Program-made: the position numbers and the translations under genes
Notes under the pieces: model-generated
Databases searched by the model: none
The model's input: only the letters and a program-made list of their open reading frames with translations
What the model was told of the DNA's origin: nothing
Shown: one piece after another, positions 20,060 to 51,124 of the stretch
Position numbering within the stretch: position 1 is the stretch's first letter
Layout of the letters: the number at the start of each line of letters is the position of its first letter
Origin: Spirosoma luteum DSM 19990
GTDB lineage: Bacteria > Bacteroidota > Bacteroidia > Cytophagales > Spirosomataceae
Assembly (NCBI RefSeq): GCF_000374065.1
Contig: NZ_KB893245.1
Coordinates: 248,001 to 312,000 of the forward strand
Direction of reading: 5' to 3'
DNA: 64,000 bases

Positions 20060-22456
20060 TTAATTTTTGCCACTACCCTGCGTGGCCGGGGGCGGTGTGG
20101 GGCGTTTCTGTTGCTGCATGGGGTTTTGCCCCTGCCCACCGCGTTGCTGCTGTTTAAACAGCTGGAAGCGGGTTGGCTCGGCAACGCGGGGAAATGCGTT
20201 GTTCTCCGTGTCGATGTCCGCTATTTCCTGGAATGGGTCGAGCGTCCACTGCTTCACTTTTTTATTGGTGGCAATCACTTTCTTGATCGACACATCGTTG
20301 AAGCGCCAGATTTCGGCCGGGAAGCGGGCAACCGAATCCGTGCCGTCTTCAAACTCCATGCGTATGATGACCGGCATGGGCAGACCGCCCTTATTTTTCA
20401 GGGCCAGCGTATAGAAATTTTGCTTGTCAGCTGCTTCAATAGCTTTTCGCTCATCGTCATTCAACGAAGCCAGGTAATCCTGGTACTTCTTCTTATCAGC
20501 GTCGGTAACCGCGTACGGGTCGTAGCTATTATAGAAATCTTTCATGGTCGAATCCTGGGCCACAACGGTTTCGGCCTGCGTAGCGGCATCGCGCTGCTTG
20601 CTGATGGTACCGGCTTTGCGTTTTGCTTCGGCGCGGGCGGACGCTTTCGTTATTTCAGGATTACCCGAATCGACCTGGAACCAGTCGACTTCCACCAAAT
20701 CCTGATCGACGGGTTCAACTCCGTAGAACCAACCTTTCCAAAACCAGTCCAGGTCAACGCCTGAGGCATCTTCCATCGTCCGGAAAAAGTCAGCCGGTTC
20801 GGGCGATTTAAACGCCCACCGACGAGCGTATTCTTTAAACGCATAATCGAATAACTCCCGGCCCATCACCGTTTCGCGCAGAATATTCAGAGCCGTAGCG
20901 GGTTTTGCGTAGGCATTGGGTCCAAGACCGATTACGTTGTCGGATGAGGTCATGATGGGGGATAACACCGCTTTGTCTGACTTCATGTAGTCAACAATGT
21001 ATTGCGGCTCACCCCGACGGCTAGGGAAATTATAATCCCAGTCTTTTTCGGCCAGATACTGGCAGAACGTATTCAGGCCCTCGTCCATCCAGGTCCACTG
21101 ACGCTCATCGGAGTTGACAATCATGGGGAAGAAGTTATGCCCTACCTCGTGAATGATAACCCCAATCATACCCGCTTTTACCTGCGGGGAGTACGTACCA
21201 TCGGCTTCCGGACGGCCACCGTTAAACGAAATCATGGGGTATTCCATACCGCCACCAGCCGTAGCGTGGCAGGAGATAGCCACGGGGTACGGATACTTGA
21301 TGGTCCGGTTACCGTACGATTTCAGCGTGTGCTCTACCACCCGGGTTGAATACTGCTCCCAAAGAGGATTACCTTCTTTGGCGTAGAAAGACATGCTCCA
21401 GATTTTGTGGCCATCACCGTACACATCGGTTTGCATGGCATCCCAAATAAACCGGCGGCTGCTGGCGAAAGCAAAATCACGTACGTTCTGCGCCGTATAC
21501 ACCCAGGTTTTCTTGCCGTTTGCTGCACCAGGTTTGGCTTTCAGCGCTTCTTCGGCTTCGGCCTGTGTAACGATAACCACCGGTTTTTTCGAGGTACTAG
21601 CCTGCGCCATGCGCTTCTGCTGGGTAGCCGATAATACCTGCTTGTAGTTCTGGCACTCACCCGTAGCCCCCACAACGTGGTCATTGGGTACGGTGATGGC
21701 TACTTTGTAATTGCCAAAAATGAGGGTAAACTCGCCCTGACCCAGAAACTGCTTGTTCTGCCAGCCATTCACATCGTTATAAGCGCATAAACGTGGAAAC
21801 CAGTGGGCAATAAAGTAGTTGTAATTACCATCTTTCGGGAAAAACTCCATACCACTCCGGCCGTAATATTCCGTGACGAAGTAGTTCCAGTCCACATTGA
21901 AGGAGTAGCTGCCACCCGGTTTGAGCGGGGCTGGCAAGTCAATCCGCATCATGGTCTGGTTGATGGTGTACTTCAGCGCAGTGCCTGACTTGGTATCTTT
22001 AACGGATGTGATATTGTACCCGTATTTGTCCGTCGCCTGCTGACTGCTCCGCTCGCGAACGGAGGTCAGGTTTTGCAACTGCCCGAAACTCATGCCGTTT
22101 TCGTTGACGCTCCCCGTGCGGGTGACGCTACCGATGGAGCCTTTTGCAAATAAATTCTGGTCGAGTTGAAGCCAGATATAGGGCAATGCATCCGTCGAGT
22201 TATTATGGTACGTAACCGTTTCCGAACCAATAATTTTTTGGTTCGCATCGTCCAGCTCGACTTTTATGTCGTAGTCGGCCTGGTTCTGGAAATAGTCCTT
22301 ACCGGGGGCACCGGCCGCCGTCCGGAAGGTGTTGGGCGTGGGCAGATTGGGGCCGAGTTGCTCAAAACGCGTGTTCGCATTTTGCGTCGGGGCTTGTTGA
22401 GCGAATACGACTGCTGACCATAGTGTAAGGCCAGCCATTAACATACTTTTTCTCAT
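20060..22456 (-). CDS. M1-family metallopeptidase, tandem paralogue A
   Basis: Secreted M1 (aminopeptidase N-like) peptidase of 798 residues. The signal peptide ends near AVVFAQ (residue 20). The N-terminal beta-saddle shows VELDDANQKIIGSETVTYHN; the zinc motif is IHEVGHNFFPMIVNSDERQWTW (His436, Glu437, His440), with the third ligand in WMDEGLNTF. The canonical GAMEN exopeptidase motif appears as GGMEYPM, so true aminopeptidase activity is uncertain. The C-terminus is Gln-rich and disordered. It follows its paralogue by 26 bp, so the two form an operon. A roughly 117-bp tract is almost identical between the paralogues. Confidence 0.92.
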   Translation of the reverse strand: MRKSMLMAGLTLWSAVVFAQQAPTQNANTRFEQLGPNLPTPNTFRTAAGAPGKDYFQNQADYDIKVELDDANQKIIGSETVTYHNNSTDALPYIWLQLDQNLFAKGSIGSVTRTGSVNENGMSFGQLQNLTSVRERSSQQATDKYGYNITSVKDTKSGTALKYTINQTMMRIDLPAPLKPGGSYSFNVDWNYFVTEYYGRSGMEFFPKDGNYNYFIAHWFPRLCAYNDVNGWQNKQFLGQGEFTLIFGNYKVAITVPNDHVVGATGECQNYKQVLSATQQKRMAQASTSKKPVVIVTQAEAEEALKAKPGAANGKKTWVYTAQNVRDFAFASSRRFIWDAMQTDVYGDGHKIWSMSFYAKEGNPLWEQYSTRVVEHTLKSYGNRTIKYPYPVAISCHATAGGGMEYPMISFNGGRPEADGTYSPQVKAGMIGVIIHEVGHNFFPMIVNSDERQWTWMDEGLNTFCQYLAEKDWDYNFPSRRGEPQYIVDYMKSDKAVLSPIMTSSDNVIGLGPNAYAKPATALNILRETVMGRELFDYAFKEYARRWAFKSPEPADFFRTMEDASGVDLDWFWKGWFYGVEPVDQDLVEVDWFQVDSGNPEITKASARAEAKRKAGTISKQRDAATQAETVVAQDSTMKDFYNSYDPYAVTDADKKKYQDYLASLNDDERKAIEAADKQNFYTLALKNKGGLPMPVIIRMEFEDGTDSVARFPAEIWRFNDVSIKKVIATNKKVKQWTLDPFQEIADIDTENNAFPRVAEPTRFQLFKQQQRGGQGQNPMQQQKRPTPPPATQGSGKN

Positions 22457-22482: not shown

Positions 22483-24858
22483 TTAATTTTTGCCACTTCC
22501 CTGCCGGGCGGGTGCTGGCTGCTGTTTCTGTTGTTGCATGGGGTTTTGGCCCTGCCCACCCCGCTGCTGTTGCTTGAATAGCTGAAACCGGGTGGGTTGG
22601 GCTACCGGTGGAAAGGAGTTATCCTCTGTATTAATGTCGGCAATTTCGTAGAATGGGTCGAGTGTCCACTGCTTCACCTTCTTGTTGGTGGCAATCACTT
22701 TGTTAATGGACACATCATTGAAGCGCCAGATTTCGGCCGGGAAGCGGGCAACTGAATCCGTACCGTCTTCAAATTCCATGCGTACAATGACCGGCATCGG
22801 AATGCCGCCTTTATTCTTGAGCGACAGCGTATAGAAGTTAGTGCCCGCTTCGGTCAGCAACTTTTCTTCAGCGGATAGAGAATTCAAATAGGCCTGGTAC
22901 TGCTGACGGTCTCCTTCCGTCACGGCGTAGGGGTCGTAGCTGTTATAGAAGTCTTTCATGGTGGAATCCTGCGCTACCACGGTTTCGTCTTTGCTGAGTG
23001 CATCCCGTTGCTTGCTGATGGTATTCATCTTTTTCTGAGCAGCGGCACGGGCTTCCACTTTCGAGATGTCGGGATTCTGGGAACCCGCCTGGAACCAGTT
23101 GACTTTCACCAATGACTGATCGACGGGTTGTACACCGTAGAACCAGCCTTTCCAGAACCAGTCTAGGTCGACGCCCGAGGCATCTTCCATCGTCCGGAAA
23201 AAGTCAGCCGGTTCGGGCGATTTAAACGCCCACCGACGAGCGTATTCTTTAAACGCATAGTCGAATAACTCCCGGCCCATCACCGTTTCGCGCAAAATAT
23301 TCAACGCCGTAGCGGGTTTACTGTACGCGTTGGGACCAAAGGTGTTGCGCGGAATATTATCCGAACTGCTCATAATGGGCACCTGCTTGCTGGAATCCAT
23401 CTGCATGTAGGGTACAATTGATTGTGGCTCGATGCCCCGCGCCGGGAAGTTAGCATCCCATTCCAGACAGGCCAGTCCTTCCAGAAAACTGTTCAGGCCT
23501 TCGTCCATCCACGACCACTGCCGCTCGTCGGAGTTGACAATCATGGGAAAGAAATTATGCCCTACTTCATGAATGACCACCAGAATCAGAAAATTTTTGG
23601 TGCCCTGCGAATAGGTGCCATCAGCCTCCGGGCGGGCACCGTTGAAGCACATCATTGGGTATTCCATGCCCCCAACCGGCCCGTGTACGGAGTAGGCCAC
23701 CGGGTAGGGATACCCGAACGTACGTTTCGAGTAGGAGCGCAGCGTGTGGGCAACTAGGCGGGTTGAATACTGGCCCCAGAGCGGGTTAGCTTCTTTTGGA
23801 TAGAGGGACATGGCCCACACCCGCTTGCCTTCCACACTGGGTTGCAACGCATCCCAGATGAATTTACGGCTGCTGGAAAACGCAAAGTCGCGCACGTTTT
23901 CGGCTTTGTATACCCAGGTTTTGGTACCCGTTGGCTTGCCTTTCTCGGCGGCTTCGGCTTCGGCCTGCGTTACGATGACCACTGGGTTTTCGCCGGGCTT
24001 ATCGCCCTTGCCTTTCGCTTCGTTCCAGCGTTTCTGCTGTGTGGCGGTTAATACCTGCCCCGGATTTTGTAGCTCACCGGTTGCGCCTACAACGTGATCA
24101 TTCGGGGCGGTGATGGCTACTTTGTAGTTACCAAAAATGAGGGTGAACTCACCCTGACCCAGAAACTGCTTGTTTTGCCAGCCATTTACATCATCGTAGG
24201 CACACATGCGCGGGAACCACTGGGCCATCTCGTAAATGTAATTACCATCTTTCGGGAAAAACTCGTAGCCGGAGCGGGCATGGGTAGAGGTGGCATCGAC
24301 AATGTGGAAATTCCAGTCGATTGAGAAAGCGACGGACTTGCCGGGAAGTACAGGTTGGGGCAGGTCAATCCGCATCATTGTTTCATTGATGGTGTATTTG
24401 ATTGCCTTACCGGCCTGGTCGCGCACGGCGGTAATTTTATAGCCGTAATCTTTTCCAATCAAAGCGGCATCGGGATTGAGCTGGGCGAGACTGGCCCGTT
24501 CCGGGTTGAGGCTGTTTGTGGTTGCGGTATTGCCGGTGGCATCGGGGCGAAAAACGTTCTGGTCAAGCTGAATCCAGAGGTAAGGCAGGGCGTCCGACGA
24601 GGTGTTATGGTACGTAATCGTTTCGGAGCCGGTAAGTCGCTGTTTAGTATCGTCCAGCGTTGCTTTGATATCGTAGTCGGCCCGGTTCTGGTAGTAGTCT
24701 TTTCCGGGGGCACCCGATGCCGTGCGAAATGTATTGGGGGTGGGCAGTTTGGGGCCAAGTTGCTCAAAACGTGTATTGGCCTGCTGAGTAGGTGCCTGAG
24801 CAAGCATAGTCCCCATTTGAACGGCCAAACTCGTTACCAGCAAAATTATCTTTTGCAT
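22483..24858 (-). CDS. M1-family metallopeptidase, tandem paralogue B
   Basis: Secreted M1-like peptidase of 791 residues, a close paralogue of the next gene: same signal-peptide architecture, same opening (NTRFEQLGP.LPTPNTFRTA), same zinc motif VIHEVGHNFFPMIVNSDERQW with His430 as first ligand, GGMEYPM, and a Gln-rich tail. Differences are concentrated in the region before the zinc site and in the segment between residues 100 and 190. As the first gene of the tandem pair it may be co-expressed with paralogue A. Substrate unknown. Confidence 0.92.
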   Translation of the reverse strand: MQKIILLVTSLAVQMGTMLAQAPTQQANTRFEQLGPKLPTPNTFRTASGAPGKDYYQNRADYDIKATLDDTKQRLTGSETITYHNTSSDALPYLWIQLDQNVFRPDATGNTATTNSLNPERASLAQLNPDAALIGKDYGYKITAVRDQAGKAIKYTINETMMRIDLPQPVLPGKSVAFSIDWNFHIVDATSTHARSGYEFFPKDGNYIYEMAQWFPRMCAYDDVNGWQNKQFLGQGEFTLIFGNYKVAITAPNDHVVGATGELQNPGQVLTATQQKRWNEAKGKGDKPGENPVVIVTQAEAEAAEKGKPTGTKTWVYKAENVRDFAFSSSRKFIWDALQPSVEGKRVWAMSLYPKEANPLWGQYSTRLVAHTLRSYSKRTFGYPYPVAYSVHGPVGGMEYPMMCFNGARPEADGTYSQGTKNFLILVVIHEVGHNFFPMIVNSDERQWSWMDEGLNSFLEGLACLEWDANFPARGIEPQSIVPYMQMDSSKQVPIMSSSDNIPRNTFGPNAYSKPATALNILRETVMGRELFDYAFKEYARRWAFKSPEPADFFRTMEDASGVDLDWFWKGWFYGVQPVDQSLVKVNWFQAGSQNPDISKVEARAAAQKKMNTISKQRDALSKDETVVAQDSTMKDFYNSYDPYAVTEGDRQQYQAYLNSLSAEEKLLTEAGTNFYTLSLKNKGGIPMPVIVRMEFEDGTDSVARFPAEIWRFNDVSINKVIATNKKVKQWTLDPFYEIADINTEDNSFPPVAQPTRFQLFKQQQRGGQGQNPMQQQKQQPAPARQGSGKN

Positions 24859-26272: not shown

Positions 26273-27670
26273 TTATTTGGTTACCTTATCGGCGGTCTTG
26301 CTAAACCAGTCGCCGATGTCGTCAACAACTTTACTGGTTTCTTTCTTCACATCATCGAATGTATTGGAAGTAGCCCGCTGCACCTTGTAGTAAGCGTCGG
26401 ACAACTGGCTGCGCTTATCCTGTAGGTCTTTAACCATGTCTTCACGCTTTTTCTTGTCCCGACGGCTTTCGTCTTTTACATCCTGCTTTACTTCGGACAG
26501 TTTTTGATCAATCTTGTCCATCTGAGACGAGATTTTGTCGCCTAAATCACGACGGTCCCGGTCAGATGACTGGTTGTTGGATTGATTACCAGTGTTGCTA
26601 TTATTCTGACGGTAGTTCTGATTCGAGTTATCGTTCCGGTCGTTGTTGTCCCGACGGCTACCCGACATGTTGCTGTAATCACCCTGACGGCTGTTATCGC
26701 GGCTGTCGGAAGAGTAATTATTCTGGCTGTTAGTACGATTGGATGAATTGTCCCGGTTATCCATCTGACGATTGTTCCGGTCGTTGTTCATGTTCCGGTT
26801 ATCGCGATTGTTGTTCCGGTCGTTGTTCATGTTCTGGTCATCACGACTACTGTTCTGGTTTGAATCGTAACTACGATTGTCACGGTTGTCCATCTGCCGG
26901 TTATCGTTCATGCTGCCACTGTTGCGGTTAGAATAACCATCATTACGGTAGGAATCCCGATTGTTGTTAGACTGATTATCGTACCGGTTGTTGTACGAAT
27001 TCTGGTCGTTGTTCATGTTCCGGTCATTGTACGAGCGGTCATTGCTGTACGAATTCCGGGAGTCCCGATCATTATATTGGCTGTTCTGACTGTTGTTCGA
27101 GTACCGATCATTGGACTGGCGATCATCGTACGAACGGTTGCTGTTGTTAGACGAATTGCGGCTGTTGTCGTACCGGTCGTTATATGAATTTCGCTGATCG
27201 TACGACTGGTTATCGTAGCGGTCGGTGTTCATGCTACGGTCGTCGTAATACCGGCTATCATACGACCGGCTGGTATTGCTGTACCGATCACTATTGTAAT
27301 AAGGATTCTGACGATCACCCGACCGGTAGGGGTTATTGTAGGTACCACTCCGATAACTCATCCGGCTCCCCTGGTCACCCGAGTTGCTATAAGGGTTCCG
27401 GTACGAACTGCTGTTGCGTGAGTTATTACTGTTATACCGCGAGTTGTTACTACTCATTCGCTCGTCATCGTCGGTACGATTTCGACGGTTGAATATCCTG
27501 TCCGCCTGATTATCGGCCGTGTTGCGTGATTCGCTGTTGCGATCCCGCTGTACAATGTCTTCCCTGCTGTTCTGTGAGTTTCCGTACAGCCAGCGCTCTG
27601 TTGATGCGCAGGATGATAAACTGGCCATTGCTGCCAGTAAAGCGCCTGCTGCCCATATTTTCCTTTTCAT
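26273..27670 (-). CDS. Asn/Ser/Arg/Asp/Tyr-rich lipoprotein with a coiled-coil end
   Basis: A 465-residue lipoprotein of unusual composition. The signal peptide ends in the lipobox LSSC (Cys21). From about residue 28 to 365 the chain is almost only Asn, Ser, Arg, Asp, Tyr and Gln, in irregular short units such as NNDRNNRDNRN and YDNQSYDQR, with hardly any hydrophobic residue apart from Tyr and Met. About 95 charged, helical residues follow (DKISSQMDKIDQKLSEVKQD to the end), which look like a coiled coil. I do not recognise a family. An anchored, disordered, possibly adhesive or condensate-forming surface chain is inferred. It has its own terminator. Antisense Cys-rich frames are artefacts of its codon repeats. 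Confidence 0.8.
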   Translation of the reverse strand: MKRKIWAAGALLAAMASLSSCASTERWLYGNSQNSREDIVQRDRNSESRNTADNQADRIFNRRNRTDDDERMSSNNSRYNSNNSRNSSSYRNPYSNSGDQGSRMSYRSGTYNNPYRSGDRQNPYYNSDRYSNTSRSYDSRYYDDRSMNTDRYDNQSYDQRNSYNDRYDNSRNSSNNSNRSYDDRQSNDRYSNNSQNSQYNDRDSRNSYSNDRSYNDRNMNNDQNSYNNRYDNQSNNNRDSYRNDGYSNRNSGSMNDNRQMDNRDNRSYDSNQNSSRDDQNMNNDRNNNRDNRNMNNDRNNRQMDNRDNSSNRTNSQNNYSSDSRDNSRQGDYSNMSGSRRDNNDRNDNSNQNYRQNNSNTGNQSNNQSSDRDRRDLGDKISSQMDKIDQKLSEVKQDVKDESRRDKKKREDMVKDLQDKRSQLSDAYYKVQRATSNTFDDVKKETSKVVDDIGDWFSKTADKVTK

Positions 27671-27799: not shown

Positions 27800-28420
27800 T
27801 CAATGATAGAACGGATAAGCAGGGTGAGCGATGCTAAAAGCACCGTAATGACCATGATGGCTAATGCTGATAGGTAGGCTGACGGTTTCCTGTAACGAGT
27901 TTTTAATGACCAGAGCAGGGAGGCCATTTTTATCGCTGAAAACCTGCAATTCCTTATCTGCAACGGACGAAACCGCAGCGTAGTGTTCCAGAAGGCTAGT
28001 ACGAAGCTGGGTAGACTGGTGCTGATTATCAGCACGTTCAAATAGAATAACTACTTGTTCGGGAATGGGGAGTTGGTTTGCAGGAAAGGCTACACTGGCA
28101 ATGTAATTCGGCGTAATCAACGATCTGGTCCGGTATTCTTCTTCATACACCACGAATCCTTCGGCGGCTTCATCGGACCACGTTGTGAGGGTACAGCTTA
28201 TTTTTTTTGGGTTGAAAACGCGCTTCCCCGTTTTCCGGGTGGTTGCTTTGTAGGCACTTTCCTTCATACTCCATAGTAGCCAAACCAGGCATTCCGGGTC
28301 AATGGCGCTCTGGATAAGCTGCTGTTCGGACGGGGTAAATAACTTATTCAGAAACCCTTTCCGCTGCCAGTTACTTTCCCGTTTTGCCTGCGCCCGATCA
28401 ACAATGTCGTTGCCAATCAT
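27800..28420 (-). CDS. 4'-phosphopantetheinyl transferase (cluster-specific)
   Basis: Transfers the phosphopantetheine arm from CoA to a carrier protein. The 206-residue protein shows the family motifs GNDIVD (Mg-binding Asp residues) at the start and WSMKESAYKA at about residue 49-58, whose Glu and Lys are catalytic. It is the last gene of the eight-gene polyketide operon and overlaps the ACP gene by 4 bp, so the adjacent ACP is its obvious substrate. The C-terminal third (about 120-206) is poorly conserved. Confidence 0.88.
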   Translation of the reverse strand: MIGNDIVDRAQAKRESNWQRKGFLNKLFTPSEQQLIQSAIDPECLVWLLWSMKESAYKATTRKTGKRVFNPKKISCTLTTWSDEAAEGFVVYEEEYRTRSLITPNYIASVAFPANQLPIPEQVVILFERADNQHQSTQLRTSLLEHYAAVSSVADKELQVFSDKNGLPALVIKNSLQETVSLPISISHHGHYGAFSIAHPAYPFYH

Positions 28421-28674
28421 TTGGCCGCTAACTTTTCCTGGATAATATCAATGGCGGTTCCTACTGTGAGCATCTTCTCCATCGACTCATTGTCAATTTC
28501 GATGTCGTAGGCTTCCTCCACATCCAGGGCAATGTCGACCAGGTTAGCCGAGTTAATCTTTAAATCCCGGATAAAATCGGTTGCTTCTGTTACGTGCTCA
28601 AATGCCTGCTCATCCTGAACGTAGGGTTTCACAATTGTTTTGAGGGCAGTAATCAATTCGTCTTTTGTCTGCAT
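28417..28674 (-). CDS. Acyl carrier protein of the polyketide operon
   Basis: An 85-residue acyl carrier protein distinct from the housekeeping AcpP at 49.5 kb. The attachment serine is Ser42 in INSANLVDI; the usual DSL is NSA here, which may mark recognition by its own partner enzymes. Four helices are predicted from the pattern of hydrophobic residues. It lies 7 bp after the ketosynthase stop and overlaps the phosphopantetheinyl transferase gene. Its job is probably to carry the growing acyl chain before handover to the type III PKS. Confidence 0.9.
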   Translation of the reverse strand: MQTKDELITALKTIVKPYVQDEQAFEHVTEATDFIRDLKINSANLVDIALDVEEAYDIEIDNESMEKMLTVGTAIDIIQEKLAAK

Positions 28675-28681
28675 TGTCTGT

Positions 28682-29953
28682 TTAGGCTAGAAACTTTTTT
28701 AAAAGTATACACGCATTTACGTCGCCAAAACCAAAGTTGGCTTTTGCTATGATCGTAATTTCTTTTCGAATGGATTGCTGAGGAATCCGGCTGACATCAA
28801 TTTGAGCGGAAATATCCGGGTGACTGTCTTCCGAATTGATGGACGGATAAATAAACCCGTTATACAATTCCAGCACCGAAGCCACGCACTCGATACTGCC
28901 GGCGGCACTCAGGCAATGGCCCACCATTGATTTGAGCGAGTTAACATAAGGAAAATCGCCACCCTGGCGCTGCAGAGCTTCGCACCAGGCAGTCACTTCG
29001 GCCGGGTCTTTTATCGTTGCCGTCAAATGACCGTCTATTACATCAACTTCGTCGGCCCGGACGCCTGCCTGCACCAAAGCTGTTTCGATGCATTTTCTGA
29101 CGGCCACCGGGTTGGGTGCGGTCATGGTTCCGCCTGCCCGCTGACCACCGGAGTTCATATGCCCGCCCAGTACTTCAGCATAAATGGTTGCCTTCCGTTC
29201 CTGCGCACTTTCCAGCGATTCCAGCACCAGCGCACCCGCACCACTGCCGGGTACAAAGCCGCTGGCGCTGGCACTAAGCGGCCTCGATGCCCGTTCGGGG
29301 TCCTCGTTGTACTGATAGGGAAGTACGCGCATGGCATCGAATCCACCCCAGATGTATGGGCCGTGGTCGCTGCAACTACCGGCCAGCATCCGTTTGGCCG
29401 AGCCGCTGGCTATTCGTTCGTAAGCCAAAAGTAGGGCTTCGGTACCCGTAGCGCAGGCGGAAGAGTTGGCACTAATCTGGTTACCGCAGCCGGTCATACC
29501 GGTCAGGTAGGCACTTACCCCACTGGTCATGATTTGAAGCACCACCGTACTGCCCAGCCGCCGAACCTGCCCCTCATCGACCTTGTAAATAGATTCCCGA
29601 AATTTATCGACGCTCAACATACCGGTCCCGAAAATAATGCCCGAATCCCAGTCCGGCTCATCGGTGGCCGTTGGAAGGCCAGCGTTATGCCAGGCCTCCA
29701 TACCCGCCATAACCCCGTAGATTATGCCACTACTGTTGAGTCCTCTGAGCTGTAAATCAGTGAAGTATTGCTGCTTGTGCGCTTCGGTAACGGGGGGGAT
29801 ACCGCCTACCTGACAGGCGAATTTTAAATCGGCTAATTCCTGATGAAAGGTAATACCACTCTTTCCGGTTTCGATAGCCTCCAGGAAGGCGGGAACGCCT
29901 ACACCATTGGGCGATACGACGCCCAGACCGGTAACAACAACCCGATTACGCAT
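28682..29953 (-). CDS. Beta-ketoacyl-ACP synthase of the polyketide operon
   Basis: Condensing enzyme of the KAS I/II type, 423 residues. The triad is complete: Cys167 in SSACATG, His309 in IDGHLTATIKDP and His346 in KSMVGHCLSAAG. The stretch around His309 departs from the common NTHGT motif, which marks it as a specialised enzyme rather than FabF, which is encoded at 49.9 kb. Its start overlaps the dehydratase gene by 8 bp. It probably elongates the acyl-ACP starter for the type III PKS. Confidence 0.92.
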   Translation of the reverse strand: MRNRVVVTGLGVVSPNGVGVPAFLEAIETGKSGITFHQELADLKFACQVGGIPPVTEAHKQQYFTDLQLRGLNSSGIIYGVMAGMEAWHNAGLPTATDEPDWDSGIIFGTGMLSVDKFRESIYKVDEGQVRRLGSTVVLQIMTSGVSAYLTGMTGCGNQISANSSACATGTEALLLAYERIASGSAKRMLAGSCSDHGPYIWGGFDAMRVLPYQYNEDPERASRPLSASASGFVPGSGAGALVLESLESAQERKATIYAEVLGGHMNSGGQRAGGTMTAPNPVAVRKCIETALVQAGVRADEVDVIDGHLTATIKDPAEVTAWCEALQRQGGDFPYVNSLKSMVGHCLSAAGSIECVASVLELYNGFIYPSINSEDSHPDISAQIDVSRIPQQSIRKEITIIAKANFGFGDVNACILLKKFLA

Positions 29954-30419
29954 GTGATTTCGACTTCATCATACCGGCAATGGTGCCCCGGCATACCAGC
30001 TCATCCTTATCGTTTAGCATCTCTACTCTACATTTCAACTTATGAAACCGGAAAAAGTCTTTCGTTGACCGAACCGTAACGGTTTCGCCGGGGAAAACGG
30101 GCTTGTAGAAATCAATCTGCGTGGCGGTCAGGGCGATTTCCAGTTCGTCGGTTGGGGCGTCATTCAGCAAAAAAATACCCAGACAAACGACACCAATTTG
30201 CGCCATTACCTCCGTCAGGATAACACCGGGTGTAACGGGCATTTGGCTAAAGTGCCCGGCATAAAAAGACGAATCGGCTGGAAAAGTATACTGTCCTTCC
30301 ACGCCATTCTCTGTAACAGATTGCAGGGAGTCAACAAACAAAAAAGGTTTGCCGTAGGGTAATTTCGAGAGGATATGGTCAAATGGCTGCACGTATAGTT
30401 TATTGGAGATGCTCGCCAC
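29946..30419 (-). CDS. FabZ-like 3-hydroxyacyl-ACP dehydratase
   Basis: Hot-dog-fold dehydratase of 157 residues. The active-site pair is His56 (AGHFSQMPVTPG) and Glu70 (ILTEVMAQ), both present and properly spaced for FabZ. It overlaps the enoyl reductase gene by 20 bp and the ketosynthase gene by 8 bp. It should dehydrate 3-hydroxyacyl chains on the cluster ACP. No ketoreductase is encoded in the operon, so a housekeeping FabG must supply its substrate. Confidence 0.9.
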   Translation of the reverse strand: MASISNKLYVQPFDHILSKLPYGKPFLFVDSLQSVTENGVEGQYTFPADSSFYAGHFSQMPVTPGVILTEVMAQIGVVCLGIFLLNDAPTDELEIALTATQIDFYKPVFPGETVTVRSTKDFFRFHKLKCRVEMLNDKDELVCRGTIAGMMKSKSHA

Positions 30420-31197
30420 CGTTGACCGGAATTACGGTACCGTTAATCCAGGCGGCTTCGTCTTTACAGAGTAAATAAACGACGTTCGCCACATCGTCGG
30501 GTGTGGTTAGGCGAGCCATTGGGTTTCGTTGCCGACTGTGCGCCAGCAACGTATCGTGACCCGGAATCATGCGTAGCGAATCTGTATTGGTAACCCCTGC
30601 CATGATGCAGTTTGCTCGAATACCTAAAGGAGCCATCTCCAGCGCAATACTCCTTGAAATAGCTTCTAGGGCCGCTTTAGCCGCCGAAACGGCTGCGTAG
30701 TTCTTCCAGGCTTTCGTGCTTCCCTCACTGGTGAAGCTAATAATACGGGCGTCGGGGGCAAACATATGTTCCATTACCAGCGCTTTTGTCCAATCGTACA
30801 AACTAATGGCCATCGCGTCGATGGTTAACTGAAAATCGTCGTGCTGGAGGCTCGGTTTCTCCTGGGCCAGCATTGGTTTCAAATTACCCTTGGCGATGCT
30901 GTGAATTAACGCCCTAATTTTCCCCTGCTCCCCCATCCGGTTGCGCAAATCGGCCATGATGGCAGTCCGCTTATCGGCATTGGTCGCATCCACGTTGACA
31001 TCAATGCATTGAATACCTTCCGCTGCCATCTGACTGAATGCCCTTTCTACGTCGGGGAGGTCCGCTTTTCGGGTTCGGTGCACGATGCACAGATTCATGC
31101 CGTGCCGTGCCAGCTTCTGCGCCGTTGCAAGGCCCAATCCTTTACTACCGCCCAGGATAATGGCCCAATAATTGTGTTGACCAAATTCGGTTACCAT
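30400..31197 (-). CDS. FabL/FabI-type enoyl-ACP reductase (SDR)
   Basis: Short-chain dehydrogenase of 265 residues with enoyl-reductase features. The nucleotide site is LGGSKGLGLA (15-24). HSIAKG (99-104) resembles the FabI HSIA word. The catalytic pair Tyr167-x6-Lys174 (NYAAVSAAKAALEA) has the spacing of enoyl reductases rather than the Yx3K of FabG. The C-terminal part (GVTNTDSLR, NPMARLTTPDDVANVVYLLC) recalls Bacillus FabL. I choose the ATG at 31197 because it overlaps the PKS stop (ATGGTAA). A ketoreductase role cannot be excluded without assay. Confidence 0.85.
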   Translation of the reverse strand: MVTEFGQHNYWAIILGGSKGLGLATAQKLARHGMNLCIVHRTRKADLPDVERAFSQMAAEGIQCIDVNVDATNADKRTAIMADLRNRMGEQGKIRALIHSIAKGNLKPMLAQEKPSLQHDDFQLTIDAMAISLYDWTKALVMEHMFAPDARIISFTSEGSTKAWKNYAAVSAAKAALEAISRSIALEMAPLGIRANCIMAGVTNTDSLRMIPGHDTLLAHSRQRNPMARLTTPDDVANVVYLLCKDEAAWINGTVIPVNGGEHLQ

Positions 31198-32243
31198 CGT
31201 AGCAAAACGCGCTGTGCCGAAAAGCCCGGCCCAAAACTGAGCATAAGCCCGTACGTATCGGTAGGACATCCTTTGTCCATGAATTGTTCTAACACATACA
31301 GGACTGTTGCGCTGGACATATTGCCGTATTTTCGTAAAACATCCTTCGTTTCGTCAATGTTCTTGCCCATTTTGCCAAAAATGTCCTGTACTACTTCTAC
31401 GATCTTCCGCCCGCCGGGGTGGAAAATAAGGTGATCAATGGATTCGATGGTGAGCTGGTTTTTTTCCAGAAAAGGATAAATAATAGCCGGGAAATGTTCG
31501 GCAATGGTATCCGTCACGGCTTTGTCCAGAATCATCTGCAAGCCGGTGTTACTGAGGCCAAAACCCATCATGTGGGTAGCCTCGTAAAAGTGGTACATAT
31601 CTTCGGCTACCACTTCCGGTCCGGCATCCTCTTCATGCGATGACAGGAGAACACAGGCGGCACCGTCGCCAAATATGGCTGCGCTCACGACGTTGGCCAT
31701 CGAATAATCGTCCAGTTGGAAGGTGGCCGTTGGGGACTCGACCGCTATCAATGCAGCCCGCTTGCCGGGATTGGCTTTCAGGAAATTCTTGGCGTAAATA
31801 ATCCCCGACACTCCAGCCGCGCACCCCATTTCGGTAACGGGAAGCCGGACCACATCCTGCCGCATCTGTAAGTTGTTAATCAGGTACGCATCCAGCGATG
31901 GAATCATAATGCCGGTACAGCTGACGGTAATCAGGTAATCGATATCCGTCAGTTTCCACGTCGTTTTTGCCAGCGCACTTTTCAGTGCTTCCTCGCCCAG
32001 TTTAATGGCTTCACGGGCGTAAATGGCGTTTTTCTCGGCGAACGTGGTTTGGGAAAAAACCTCTTCCGGGCTCATGACCGAATACCGCCGGTCGACAGCC
32101 GCATTTTCAAATATCTTCTTTACTTTCCGCTGAAACCGGCTGTCCTGCCCGGCTAGCCAAACATCCAGAAAGGGTAAAATATCACTTGTATCCCGCCAAT
32201 GTTGAGGTAATGCTTTCGCTACTGCTGTAATTCGTACACTCAT
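31191..32243 (-). CDS. Type III polyketide synthase (chalcone/stilbene synthase family)
   Basis: Homodimeric ketosynthase of 350 residues that extends an acyl starter with malonyl-CoA and cyclises it without a carrier protein. The triad is intact: Cys141 (MGCAAGVSG), His275 (IFHPGGRK) and Asn308 (YGNMSSAT). The C-terminal GFGPG-like loop is SFGPGFS. The ATG at 32243 is chosen because it overlaps the methyltransferase stop (ATGA); the longer frame adds 14 doubtful residues. Its place beside fatty-acid-type enzymes suggests a fatty acyl starter and an alkylresorcinol, alkylpyrone or related product. Confidence 0.95.
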   Translation of the reverse strand: MSVRITAVAKALPQHWRDTSDILPFLDVWLAGQDSRFQRKVKKIFENAAVDRRYSVMSPEEVFSQTTFAEKNAIYAREAIKLGEEALKSALAKTTWKLTDIDYLITVSCTGIMIPSLDAYLINNLQMRQDVVRLPVTEMGCAAGVSGIIYAKNFLKANPGKRAALIAVESPTATFQLDDYSMANVVSAAIFGDGAACVLLSSHEEDAGPEVVAEDMYHFYEATHMMGFGLSNTGLQMILDKAVTDTIAEHFPAIIYPFLEKNQLTIESIDHLIFHPGGRKIVEVVQDIFGKMGKNIDETKDVLRKYGNMSSATVLYVLEQFMDKGCPTDTYGLMLSFGPGFSAQRVLLRW

Positions 32244-32953
32244 AGGTTTTTTATAATCCATTGATAGCGAAACGCCCATCGCCAATTGATACTGTACTCG
32301 TTCAGATGCAGTTGTCTGGAATAGTTCTCTAAGTCCGCCCGCTTGAACCCCCGAAGAATTGATGTTAGTCCGTCTTCTCTGGACATTCTATTTAGTCCAA
32401 AAACGAAGCAGATGAGTTGAAATAATCGGTACGGAATCGGACTCCGTTGCAGGTCATTGATAACTACGCCCAGCGTAGCTTGTTCCGACAATAATTTCAT
32501 CAGGGCCAAAATAGCATCGTCCGAAAAATGGTGCAGGGTCAGGGTACATACGGCAATGTCATACTGTACCGCTGTAAAGGCTTCGCTGAAAACGTCCTGC
32601 ACCCGGTAGGTTATCGAGGGGTACTCGGTAGAACAGGCTTCGGCATGGCGGATTGTAAACGGATTAGCATCGATGCCCAAAACCGATACAGTCCGGTTTT
32701 CCTTCCGGGCAAAGTCCGCAATAGCGCGGCACATATCTCCATTGCCACAACCGATATCCAGGATAGAAACGGGTTTATCGTTCGGCTGGTTTTTGAGCAG
32801 GACCTTTATGCCATCCAGCGTAATTTTGTTGCCACCCAGCCATTGGTTAATCTCGGCAATTTTATCCAGAGCCTCCTTCAGTTCGTTGCCTTCCATCGAG
32901 AAATCATCCATTATTTCTTCTCTGGACGTGCGGTGTGCGGTATTCAATGCCAT
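32240..32953 (-). CDS. Class I SAM methyltransferase of the polyketide operon
   Basis: S-adenosylmethionine-dependent methyltransferase of 237 residues. SAM motif I is ILDIGCGNGDMCRAIADF (about 71-88), followed by an acidic motif II region (VLGIDANPF) and CTLTLHHFSDD. A second ATG 14 codons in (MDDFSMEGN) is an alternative start. It overlaps the PKS gene by 4 bp. By analogy with Streptomyces srs and Bacillus bps operons it probably methylates the phenolic or pyrone hydroxyl of the PKS product, although those enzymes belong to another methyltransferase family. Confidence 0.88.
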   Translation of the reverse strand: MALNTAHRTSREEIMDDFSMEGNELKEALDKIAEINQWLGGNKITLDGIKVLLKNQPNDKPVSILDIGCGNGDMCRAIADFARKENRTVSVLGIDANPFTIRHAEACSTEYPSITYRVQDVFSEAFTAVQYDIAVCTLTLHHFSDDAILALMKLLSEQATLGVVINDLQRSPIPYRLFQLICFVFGLNRMSREDGLTSILRGFKRADLENYSRQLHLNEYSINWRWAFRYQWIIKNL

Positions 32954-32994
32954 TCGATTCGTCTAAATAATGAGCTAATGTTCATCGCGGCTTA

Positions 32995-34140
32995 CTAAGC
33001 GGCCACCAGTGGATTTCCGTGCGTTTGTTTAATAATAAGCGGTAATATTCCCGGCGTTAGCTGCACCCCCTTCATCACGAGTGACGTAGCGAAAGGCGAC
33101 TGTAATACATATTGTAGGGCCCGCCCGGCGGTTAGTCGTTTATTAAATTCATGCGTCCAGGCAAGGGTATATTGTTTCTCCAGCGTTGCCCGGTCAATCG
33201 TGACCCAGTCAAAGGAATGGGGCTGGTAATGCATTTCAATCAATTCGGCCAGGATTTTGGCACTGTGAATGGCCATTGCCATGCCATTCCCGCAAAGCGG
33301 ATGGATTAGCCCGGCAGTGTCGCCACTCATCAGCACGTGGTTTTCGACGGGCTGTTTTTTGGCAAACGAAAGCTGACTGATGACCAGTGGCTTGTCAAAC
33401 AGCGGGGTAGCACTGGCGAAAAAACGATTCAGAAAAGGATTTTTTCGGAGTACCCGCTCCTGGAATTCGGCTACATTTTTATACTGCTTAAAACTGCTGT
33501 AGTGGGCCAGATAACAGGCATTCACGATGCCCTCTTCCACCTGACTCAATCCGCAGTACCCACCCTCGAAATTATGGAGCGATACCTGATCATTGGGAAT
33601 ATCAGCCCGGTAGTGGGCTTTAACGCCCAGCCAGGGCGAGGCCTGGTGCATGAATGCCCGGTTTAACTGCTTATCCAGCAATGACCGTTTTCCGTAGGCC
33701 CCGATAACCAGATTTGCCGTGTAGGTTTCATTACCTGATGTAGTGACGGTAAACTGATTATCCTCAAACTGAACGGCTTCTGCCTGAGTCTGCAAAACTC
33801 GTACACCCGAAAGAAGCGCCTTTTGGTACAAAAAATCATCAAGCCGATACCGGCTCACACCGAATCCGCCCAGAGGTAGTTTACTTTCTACTGATTTCCC
33901 GGAGACCGTGCTCAATTGAAAGCGATTGATTCGGGAAGGGCCGAGTTCATCGACTGATACACCTAACTGCTCAAGATAAGGAAGTACCTCGTTAGAGACG
34001 TATTCGCCACAGACTTTATGATGCGGATAGGCCTGCTTCTCGACCAGGATTACCCGAAATTTCTTTTGGGAAAGATGAATACCCGCTACCAGTCCCGCCA
34101 GTCCACCACCAATAATAATAACGTCGGCATTACACGGCAT
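32995..34140 (-). CDS. FAD-dependent monooxygenase/reductase of the polyketide operon
   Basis: Flavoprotein of 381 residues, first gene of the operon. The Rossmann motif is IIIGGGLAGLVAGIHL (8-23), with a KVCGEYVS word like geranylgeranyl-reductase-type flavoproteins and the FAD ribityl motif MSGDTAGLIHPLCGNGMAMA near residue 280. Its likely task is ring hydroxylation to a quinone or reduction of a side chain. It lies 41 bp before the methyltransferase, the only real gap in the first seven genes, so a common promoter upstream of 34140 is likely. Confidence 0.88.
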   Translation of the reverse strand: MPCNADVIIIGGGLAGLVAGIHLSQKKFRVILVEKQAYPHHKVCGEYVSNEVLPYLEQLGVSVDELGPSRINRFQLSTVSGKSVESKLPLGGFGVSRYRLDDFLYQKALLSGVRVLQTQAEAVQFEDNQFTVTTSGNETYTANLVIGAYGKRSLLDKQLNRAFMHQASPWLGVKAHYRADIPNDQVSLHNFEGGYCGLSQVEEGIVNACYLAHYSSFKQYKNVAEFQERVLRKNPFLNRFFASATPLFDKPLVISQLSFAKKQPVENHVLMSGDTAGLIHPLCGNGMAMAIHSAKILAELIEMHYQPHSFDWVTIDRATLEKQYTLAWTHEFNKRLTAGRALQYVLQSPFATSLVMKGVQLTPGILPLIIKQTHGNPLVAA

Positions 34141-49479: not shown

Positions 49480-49719
49480 ATGTCGGACATTGCACAAAAA
49501 GTTAAGAATATCATTGTTGAAAAATTGGGTGTCGAAGAATCAGAAGTGACCCCAGAAGCAAGTTTCACAAATGACCTGGGTGCCGATTCGCTCGATACCG
49601 TCGAGTTAATTATGGAATTTGAAAAAGAATTCAATTTACCTATTCCTGATGACGAGGCTGAGAAAATCTCAACGGTTGGTTTGGCTATCGAATACCTGGA
49701 AAAACACATTGGTAAATAA
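49480..49719 (+). CDS. acpP: Housekeeping acyl carrier protein
   Basis: Carries acyl chains in fatty-acid synthesis. The 79-residue acidic protein has the attachment serine Ser37 in [12 protein letters not shown]. Sequence and length are typical of AcpP. fabF follows on the same strand after 154 bp with a hairpin between them, and rnc follows fabF. It is clearly different from the cluster ACP at 28.4 kb. Confidence 0.97.
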
Positions 49720-49873: not shown

Positions 49874-51124
49874 ATGGCGTTCAAAAGAGTAGTAGTGACC
49901 GGCCTTGGTGCCTTGACACCCATTGGCAACGATGTACCCACGTATTGGAGTAACTTAGCCGCTGGAATGAGCGGTGCCGGCCTCATTACAAAATTCGATG
50001 CCAGTAAATTTCGTACGCATTTCGCCTGCGAATTAAAAGGGGTAGATGTTACCCAGTATATTCCCCGTCAGGAAGCGCGCAAAATGGATGCTTTTACCCA
50101 TTATGCCCTGATTGCTACGGAAGAGGCGGTGAAGGATGCGGAACTGAATCTTGATGCTATCGACAAAAATAAGGTCGGTGTCATCTGGGGGTCGGGTATC
50201 GGTGGACTCAAGTCGTTTGAGGATGAAATGATTGATTATGCCAAAGGTGACGGTACACCCCGAATCAATCCCTTTTTCATCGTCCGCATGATTGCTGATA
50301 GTGCATCGGGTCAAATTTCGATGCGATACGGATTTCGGGGAACAAACTACGTTACCGTTTCGGCCTGTGCCTCCACGAACAATGCGATTATTGATGCATT
50401 GAACTATATTCGTTTAGGGCGCCTGAACATGTGTGTGGTGGGCGGTTCCGAAGCTGCCGTGACAAAAGCCGGTATTGGTGGTTTTAATGCCAACCGGGCT
50501 TTGTCGGAGCGCAATGACTCCCCGGAAACCGCTTCCCGCCCTTATGATAAAGACCGGGATGGATTTGTTATGGGCGAAGGAGCAGGTGCCCTTATTCTGG
50601 AAGAATACGAACATGCTCAATCCCGTGGAGCCAAGATTTATGCGGAGTTAATTGGGGGTGGGATGTCGTCGGATGCCTATCATATCACCGCACCACACCC
50701 CGATGGATTAGGCGCATTTCTGGGCATGCAGGACGCCCTCAACGATGCGGGAATTGCCCCCGAAGAAATCGACTACATTAACACGCACGGTACGTCTACA
50801 CCGATAGGTGACCCGCAGGAGCTCAAAGCTATTTATCAGTTGTTTGGTGAGCATTCATTCAAGATGAATATTAGCTCGACCAAGTCAATGACCGGGCATT
50901 TGCTCGGAGCTGCCGGAGCCGTTGAAGCAATTGCCTGTATTAAAGCGATGGAACACCAACTGGTGCCACCAACCATAAATCATTTCACCGACGACGATGA
51001 AATTGATTCGCGCTTCAATCTAACATTTAATACAGCTCAGGAACGTTCGATAACGACTGTCATGAGCAATGCCTTCGGATTTGGGGGGCACAATGCTATT
51101 GTCATTTTCCGTAAACCTAGCTGA
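49874..51124 (+). CDS. fabF: Beta-ketoacyl-ACP synthase II
   Basis: Elongating condensing enzyme of fatty-acid synthesis, 416 residues. The active-site Cys165 is in VSACASTNN; the two His are in NTHGTSTPIGDP and KSMTGHLLGAAG. It lies between acpP and rnc, the classic order in many bacteria. It is the housekeeping counterpart of the specialised ketosynthase at 28.7 kb, from which it differs most around the first His. Confidence 0.96.
   Translation: MAFKRVVVTGLGALTPIGNDVPTYWSNLAAGMSGAGLITKFDASKFRTHFACELKGVDVTQYIPRQEARKMDAFTHYALIATEEAVKDAELNLDAIDKNKVGVIWGSGIGGLKSFEDEMIDYAKGDGTPRINPFFIVRMIADSASGQISMRYGFRGTNYVTVSACASTNNAIIDALNYIRLGRLNMCVVGGSEAAVTKAGIGGFNANRALSERNDSPETASRPYDKDRDGFVMGEGAGALILEEYEHAQSRGAKIYAELIGGGMSSDAYHITAPHPDGLGAFLGMQDALNDAGIAPEEIDYINTHGTSTPIGDPQELKAIYQLFGEHSFKMNISSTKSMTGHLLGAAGAVEAIACIKAMEHQLVPPTINHFTDDDEIDSRFNLTFNTAQERSITTVMSNAFGFGGHNAIVIFRKPS

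Follow-up and report, generated by a model that had tools for sequence, protein, structure and literature searches.

The window analyzed here, a stretch of 64,000 nucleotides of the soil bacterium Spirosoma luteum DSM 19990 (contig NZ_KB893245.1, positions 248,001 to 312,000 of the forward strand), carries on its minus strand, from 34140 down to 27800, a block of eight genes that includes a type III polyketide synthase (PKS). The block is a real unit and belongs to a widespread and coherent operon family. In the reading that we prefer and hold to be likely, it is a self-contained phenolic-lipid operon: a private type II set would make an acyl chain, separately from the ordinary fatty acids, on its own acyl carrier protein (ACP), this chain would prime the type III PKS to form a resorcinol-type ring, and the ring would then be tailored. 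Four observations form the base of this reading, namely the genes themselves, their conserved catalytic residues, their inheritance as a unit, and the separate links of each half of the operon to other PKS or resorcinol gene sets. The operon family probably works in the manner of a hierridin-type phenolic-lipid pathway that is supplied by a type II chain set of its own.

Organization of the operon

The gene order is flavin adenine dinucleotide (FAD)-dependent oxidoreductase, methyltransferase, type III PKS, FabL-like short-chain dehydrogenase/reductase (SDR), FabZ-like dehydratase (DH), FabF-like ketosynthase (KS), ACP, and 4'-phosphopantetheinyl transferase (PPTase). The original prediction, made from the sequence alone, had described eight mostly overlapping genes on one strand. 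Its coordinates are confirmed and its family calls hold in Pfam and NCBIfam, with overlaps of 4 to 20 bp at five of the seven junctions and gaps of 41 and 7 bp at the other two. All eight proteins score under the cutoffs of their best NCBIfam models and are therefore divergent members of their families, not housekeeping copies.

The genes at the upstream end would form and decorate the ring. The first, at 32995..34140, encodes the FAD-dependent oxidoreductase, a probable ring hydroxylase (Pfam FAD_binding_3) of the geranylgeranyl-reductase/aromatic-hydroxylase superfamily. It is followed at 32240..32953 by an S-adenosylmethionine-dependent methyltransferase (Pfam Methyltransf_25) that is PRK06202-like and UbiG-related, scoring 127 bits with NCBIfam PRK06202 and not reaching the cutoff of 243. 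The type III PKS at 31191..32243 matches the N- and C-terminal domains of chalcone/stilbene synthases (Pfam Chal_sti_synt_N and Chal_sti_synt_C) with 81.7 and 62.9 bits against a curated cutoff of 27. With the ATG at 32243 taken as its start, the numbering of the predicted catalytic triad Cys141-His275-Asn308 is exact, and the triad is kept in all 80 relatives described below.

The remaining five genes make up the chain-building set. The SDR (30400..31197) lies in a reading frame that opens at 31269, with a likely start at the ATG at 31197. This probable enoyl-ACP reductase has FabL as its best model and best PDB match (3oic), although the NCBIfam score of 160.8 bits does not reach the cutoff of 328. 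Its Y-x6-K motif was rightly called intact: Ser and Tyr are present in 47 of 47 relatives and Lys in 46, the other showing a gap. The hotdog-fold DH (29946..30419, GTG start) matches Pfam FabA and NCBIfam FabZ (63 bits, below the cutoff of 113) and keeps His56 and Glu70 in 79 of 79 relatives. The KS (28682..29953) scores 270 bits with NCBIfam fabF against a cutoff of 494 and diverges from housekeeping FabF, with 33% identity to the genome's second FabF, encoded at 49874-51124 in the window next to an acpP-like gene at 49480-49719. Its catalytic triad also proved intact, with the Cys in 78 of 78 relatives and both His in 77, one having a gap. The dedicated ACP (28417..28674) would carry its 4'-phosphopantetheine on Ser42, in the context NSANL, and this Ser is kept in 75 of 75 relatives; the ACP has no Pfam match at 1e-3 and reaches up to 43 bits, under the cutoff, with the NCBIfam ACP models. 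The last gene (27800..28420) encodes the PPTase (Pfam ACPS, 53.5 bits against 25). As the original prediction held, the block contains no ketoreductase: besides the FabL-like SDR, Pfam and NCBIfam identified no FabG-like gene in it. In the whole genome the FabG family has 52 matches, one of which, located elsewhere, is over the cutoff.

Distribution and inheritance of the operon

We scanned a collection of 84,980 species for relatives of the PKS, a search that reaches close relatives only. It returned 81, of which 80 were kept; these are Bacteroidota by title and 66 to 97% identical, the closest named relative being that of S. spitsbergense (97%). In 78 of the 80 named loci, those genes that occur stand in collinear order, so that the predicted arrangement extends across many Bacteroidota; in the two Dyadobacter loci the chain set is inverted and no FAD gene was seen. 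Seventy loci are not cut by contig ends, and all seven core genes occur in 65 of them (38 with the SDR and 27 without it). In a locus from a Saprospiraceae metagenome-assembled genome (L015, 10972-13305), a gene with an extracellular contractile injection system core domain and one further gene interrupt the block between the SDR and DH genes.

A separate draw of 296 Bacteroidota genomes places these loci against the background of the phylum. Some type III PKS is encoded in 132 of the genomes (E values up to 1e-20), the close kind, at least 64% identical, in 25 only, and the next match below it stands at 38%. A close KS (at least 58%) occurs in exactly the same 25 genomes. In these the PKS and KS genes lie on one contig less than 1.6 kb apart (coordinates compared by eye), and the FAD, methyltransferase, and DH genes flank the PKS gene in every case. 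Four further genomes encode a KS at 49 to 52% identity, each off the contig of its PKS. From this sample we also took 56 loci that encode distant type III PKSs and searched them with family hidden Markov models, using two scripts with thresholds of 1e-3 and 1e-5; KS, DH, or ACP was found in none of these stretches, several of which are cut by contig ends (e.g., L157, L161, L174, and L195), and one SDR match occurred, in L189. The expectation that the type III PKS of this family is accompanied by type II-like enzymes of its own is borne out.

Across loci, the pairwise divergences of the eight proteins correlate, with r between 0.56 and 0.90. Two Spirosoma genomes without the block have an empty site at which the flanking genes are joined directly, and in four other Spirosoma genomes the whole block sits at a different place. 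Gene order and co-occurrence lie far above chance; therefore, the block is a real unit, and the 80 named loci together with the 25 of 296 genomes rule out a chance single cluster or a misannotation.

Other candidate associations were rejected. Neighboring genes found in at least four loci are common only within groups of related genera, the largest such group comprising 23 loci, mostly of Pedobacter (neighbors judged by eye); the eight-gene block thus looks like the unit, with no conserved extension past it. A role for the alpha-2-macroglobulin gene was dismissed: of the 18 Spirosoma genomes that carry the block, 9 have it next to this gene, and in the other 9 the block lies elsewhere or on another contig. 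Plasmid carriage was likewise discarded: the 100 plasmid records that match the PKS are all below 60% identity, a Rhizobium example has no methyltransferase, FAD, or KS gene annotated within 6 kb in the PLSDB tables, which are incomplete, and the PKS-matching region of a Streptomyces record carries no annotation.

Proposed pathway and alternatives

In the pathway that we propose, the PPTase would activate the private ACP. On this ACP an acyl chain would be assembled or lengthened by the KS, the DH, and, where present, the FabL-like reductase, working together with a ketoreductase of the general pool. With this chain as its starter, the type III PKS would add malonyl units and form a ring of the resorcinol type (or a pyrone). 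As in the making of hierridin, hydroxylation of the ring by the FAD enzyme and its methylation by the methyltransferase would follow, and a methylated alkyl-hydroquinone or a quinone-type lipid would result. We infer the roles of the PPTase, KS, DH, SDR, and PKS in chain making and priming from family knowledge, and we also infer the acyl-ACP handover, the tailoring order, and the product. The original prediction had a special starter chain handed over on the ACP and a phenolic lipid, alkylpyrone, or quinone as the product; that product class is consistent with the evidence, while the special starter, the handover, and any exact product are conjectural.

The structure model of the PKS is consistent with such a route. 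Models of the PKS and the FAD enzyme, built on 14-row alignments, reached mean predicted local distance difference test scores of 82.9 and 83.9, respectively. Among solved structures, the PKS scores best, by sequence and by fold, with Pks11 (Z 43.1, root mean square deviation [rmsd] 2.2, 336 residues aligned) and CylI (Z 41.1, rmsd 2.2, 336 aligned). Pks11 uses long acyl starters. CylI does so too, in a pathway whose chain begins on a free-standing ACP; for HidC, a C14 acyl-ACP is described as the starter (both in PMC8086630).

Several observations weigh against the proposed pathway. Five of the 70 uncut loci are incomplete, lacking the PPTase (L011), the ACP and the PPTase (L015 and L029), or the FAD gene (L030 and L044). 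Since no ketoreductase lies in the block, the set is not a complete chain builder. Nor is the reductase a fixed member: it is present in the window, and a close SDR homologue occurs in 9 of the 25 carrier genomes, always within the block, while no homologue was found anywhere in the other 16 at E values up to 1e-40. The reductase is therefore optional in the operon family, and carriers without it either rely on a different enoyl reductase or make unsaturated tails. Of the NCBIfam models, the PKS matches DpgA best, an enzyme that uses malonyl-CoA alone, with 183 bits, far under the cutoff of 425. A tree of 93 PKSs does not join Pks11 and CylI to the clade of the window PKS and places them among 23 other PKSs from Bacteroidota, which have neither the FAD nor the methyltransferase gene beside them; the position of Pks11 and CylI is unsure, the tree coming from a quick search under a simple model with three reference rows on long branches, two of which join each other. 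Finally, three of the sampled genomes (G077, G127, and G046) have a DH-KS-ACP set, with a KS at 49 to 50% identity, beside glycosyltransferase-like and GNAT-like genes that are seemingly unrelated to resorcinols (the GNAT-like label was given by eye, from one weak match), and in G077 a BioF/serine-palmitoyltransferase-like gene lies near this set.

For the FAD enzyme, the best NCBIfam model is TIGR02032, the geranylgeranyl reductase superfamily, with 110 bits against an unreached cutoff of 158.8. Together with this match, two others could suggest that the enzyme halogenates or reduces, in which case the phenolic lipid would be halogenated or saturated: the top fold match of its model is the FADH2-dependent halogenase PltA (Z 35.5, rmsd 2.8, 360 aligned), and its three best PDB profile matches, at most 62 bits, are halogenases. 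We regard this as unlikely. Aromatic hydroxylases that share this fold come within 3 Z units of PltA, among them 3-hydroxybenzoate 6-hydroxylase (Z 33.0, rmsd 3.1, 362 aligned), and the pattern F.P.S.G, which we take to be a halogenase motif, was found in none of 78 relatives. Because the model lies among flavin halogenases and aromatic hydroxylases and the pattern is missing, a ring hydroxylase is the favored but unproven role. Ring hydroxylation is also present in the hierridin product: the alkylresorcinol hierridin B bears a hydroxyl group at position 4 and O-methyl groups at positions 1 and 3 (PMC10896814). In the Gimesia counterpart, that source treats the methyltransferase as probably a C-methyltransferase and leaves the role of the FAD enzyme unsettled.

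A different order of events, less probable still, would form the ring first. The PKS would make a small aromatic acid or a phloroglucinol-type head from malonyl-CoA alone, in the manner of DpgA, and this head would be loaded on the ACP and extended by the KS, DH, and reductase, or else acylated by the chain. An aryl head does start arylpolyene and flexirubin logic in Bacteroidota, and both the DpgA match and the position of the PKS clade apart from Pks11 and CylI would agree with such a route. Against this, the DpgA score is far too low, the solved relatives nearest to the PKS are those that take long acyl starters, and Pfam and NCBIfam searches of the block identified no ligase gene inside it.

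The least probable alternative is an ordinary hierridin-type cluster. Its PKS would draw starters made by general fatty acid synthesis, and the KS-DH-ACP set would be no more than a linked neighbor or would serve a different lipid. Triads of FAD, methyltransferase, and type III PKS genes without fatty acid synthase (FAS) genes are indeed common in Bacteroidota and have been described from cyanobacteria and Planctomycetota (PMC10896814, PMC8086630), and the handover to the PKS is our conjecture, but the close KS and the close PKS coincide in 25 of the 296 genomes, their order is constant across families, and the 30 FAS-set PKSs form one long-stemmed clade (stem 1.08; Shimodaira-Hasegawa-like approximate likelihood ratio 100) apart from the triad PKSs, which lie in another large clade. 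Because the tree keeps the PKS apart from Pks11 and CylI, we hold chain-first priming slightly less likely, and the ring-first and ordinary-cluster alternatives marginally more likely, than otherwise.

Links of the two halves to other gene sets

The pieces of the operon recombine: the FAD and methyltransferase pair occurs with another PKS lineage, and the chain set occurs with DarB-type genes. For the first half, we considered 60 loci of distant PKSs, namely the 56 control loci and four others, from Spirosoma, that encode a second type of PKS. Homologues of both tailoring genes are present in 25 of the 60, 13 with a strong and 12 with a weak FAD score; the pair therefore fits a shared ring. 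In the 13 strong-FAD loci, the FAD proteins are 31 to 47% and the methyltransferases 26 to 40% identical to those of the window. These sets resemble our operon in having the related pair beside a type III PKS and differ from it in that their PKS belongs to another clade, no KS-DH-ACP set accompanies it, and a UbiA prenyltransferase gene is found in 9 of the 13 (Pfam matches on two), whereas the 80 named FAS-set loci have no such gene. The loci in which UbiA is linked to the PKS, methyltransferase, and FAD genes are L133, L134, L177, L178, L184, L186, L187, L190, and L194.

For the second half, one genome (G099) has an SDR-DH-KS-ACP-PPTase set, with a KS at 52% identity, opposite genes for DarB, DarG, and DarH, all over their cutoffs. 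This dar/flexirubin arrangement has a homologous chain set and, in contrast to our operon, obtains its ring from a DarB-type synthase rather than a type III PKS. In the genome of the window, DarB is not over the cutoff (best match, 34.9 bits against 550). In the group of L141 (1851-12246), L139, and L140, DH-KS-ACP sets whose KS is 49 to 50% identical to that of the window stand with GNAT-like and GT2 glycosyltransferase-like genes, and a BioF/serine-palmitoyltransferase-like gene is nearby in L141; their company suggests a novel lipid of that group.

A broader reading of these links can be offered only tentatively. The KS, DH, ACP, PPTase, and optional enoyl reductase may form a portable tail cassette that serves unrelated head enzymes, possibly the type III PKS in the window, DarB in G099, and the BioF/serine-palmitoyltransferase-like neighborhood in G077, while the FAD and methyltransferase head pair may alternatively be given a UbiA-derived prenyl tail. 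The window product might then be a quinone-like lipid whose tail is kept apart from membrane fatty acids, is unsaturated or polyenic where the reductase is lacking, and is interchangeable with a prenylated version.

Spirosoma itself has two types of PKS. The second type, 28 to 31% identical to that of the window (L118-L121, L142, L236, and L237), has a UbiA gene nearby in 7 of 10 stretches. Among 36 Spirosoma genomes, the window type occurs in 18 and the second type in 19; 15 genomes have the window type only, 16 the second type only, 3 both, and 2 neither (these two are 82% and 71% complete). We rejected this complementary split as proof that the PKS types are interchangeable, since there are too few independent changes: on a one-gene tree of 31 Spirosoma genomes, the window type changes at least two times and the second type three times, with only one independent pair of switches on supported branches.

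Other features of the window and genome

Downstream of the operon, a gene at 26273-27670 (minus strand) encodes a 465-amino-acid protein with a very high content of Asn, Ser, Asp, Arg, and Tyr, which matched no Pfam family at 1e-5; in five Spirosoma loci, this gene (41 to 76% protein identity) adjoins a hexapeptide-repeat gene. Farther along the same strand are a gene for an M1-family peptidase (Pfam; 22483-24858), which has two tandem matches in each of L196 and L201, and then a long open reading frame at 20060-22456. Elsewhere in the genome, on contigs C16, C66, and C22, three frames of 2,233 to 2,303 amino acids with ketosynthase-like stretches probably encode type I PKSs.

Comparison with known systems and significance

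The hid (hierridin) genes of cyanobacteria and their Planctomycetota counterpart likewise combine a methyltransferase, an FAD oxidoreductase, and a type III PKS in one operon (PMC10896814). The hid core has these three genes, whereas the window operon has a different order and an added five-gene chain set. The likeness is one of gene content, in which the FAD and methyltransferase pair compares best with the hierridin-type tailoring pair. The PKSs of the Bacteroidota triads lie in a different clade from the window PKS. In Azotobacter, the ars type III PKS genes are also flanked by their own fatty-chain genes (PMC3098273), but these are multidomain (type I) FAS/PKS genes accompanied by two type III PKSs; the window operon has one PKS, its own PPTase, tailoring genes, and discrete type II-like KS, DH, SDR, and ACP proteins, with no type I FAS subunits in the block. 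In the cyl pathway to [7.7]paracyclophanes, an ACP-started chain reaches the type III PKS CylI (PMC8086630), the second-best solved relative. Unlike our operon, cyl elongates its chain with type I PKSs and later dimerizes the product; no such genes lie in the window block.

The gene order of the operon thus recurs in relatives, PKS and FAS-like genes are found together well beyond S. luteum, and the open-licence PMC literature yielded no description of the operon and no paper on Spirosoma and type III polyketide synthases; none of these outcomes speaks against the original prediction. Type III PKSs account for 10.74% of the biosynthetic clusters in 2,680 genomes of Flavobacteriaceae and their kin (PMC10734526), a survey whose main text uses the term "type III" once. 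In the sections that concern them, this survey and a second one of Flavobacteriaceae (PMC7440613) count type III PKS clusters without describing the window operon; in these surveys, the type III PKSs of Bacteroidota figure solely as a cluster class. The operon family now provides a defined target for finding its lipid. It would let the priming of a type III PKS by acyl-ACP be studied in a natural system, and it may represent a case in which head and tail modules are exchanged between phenolic-lipid pathways.

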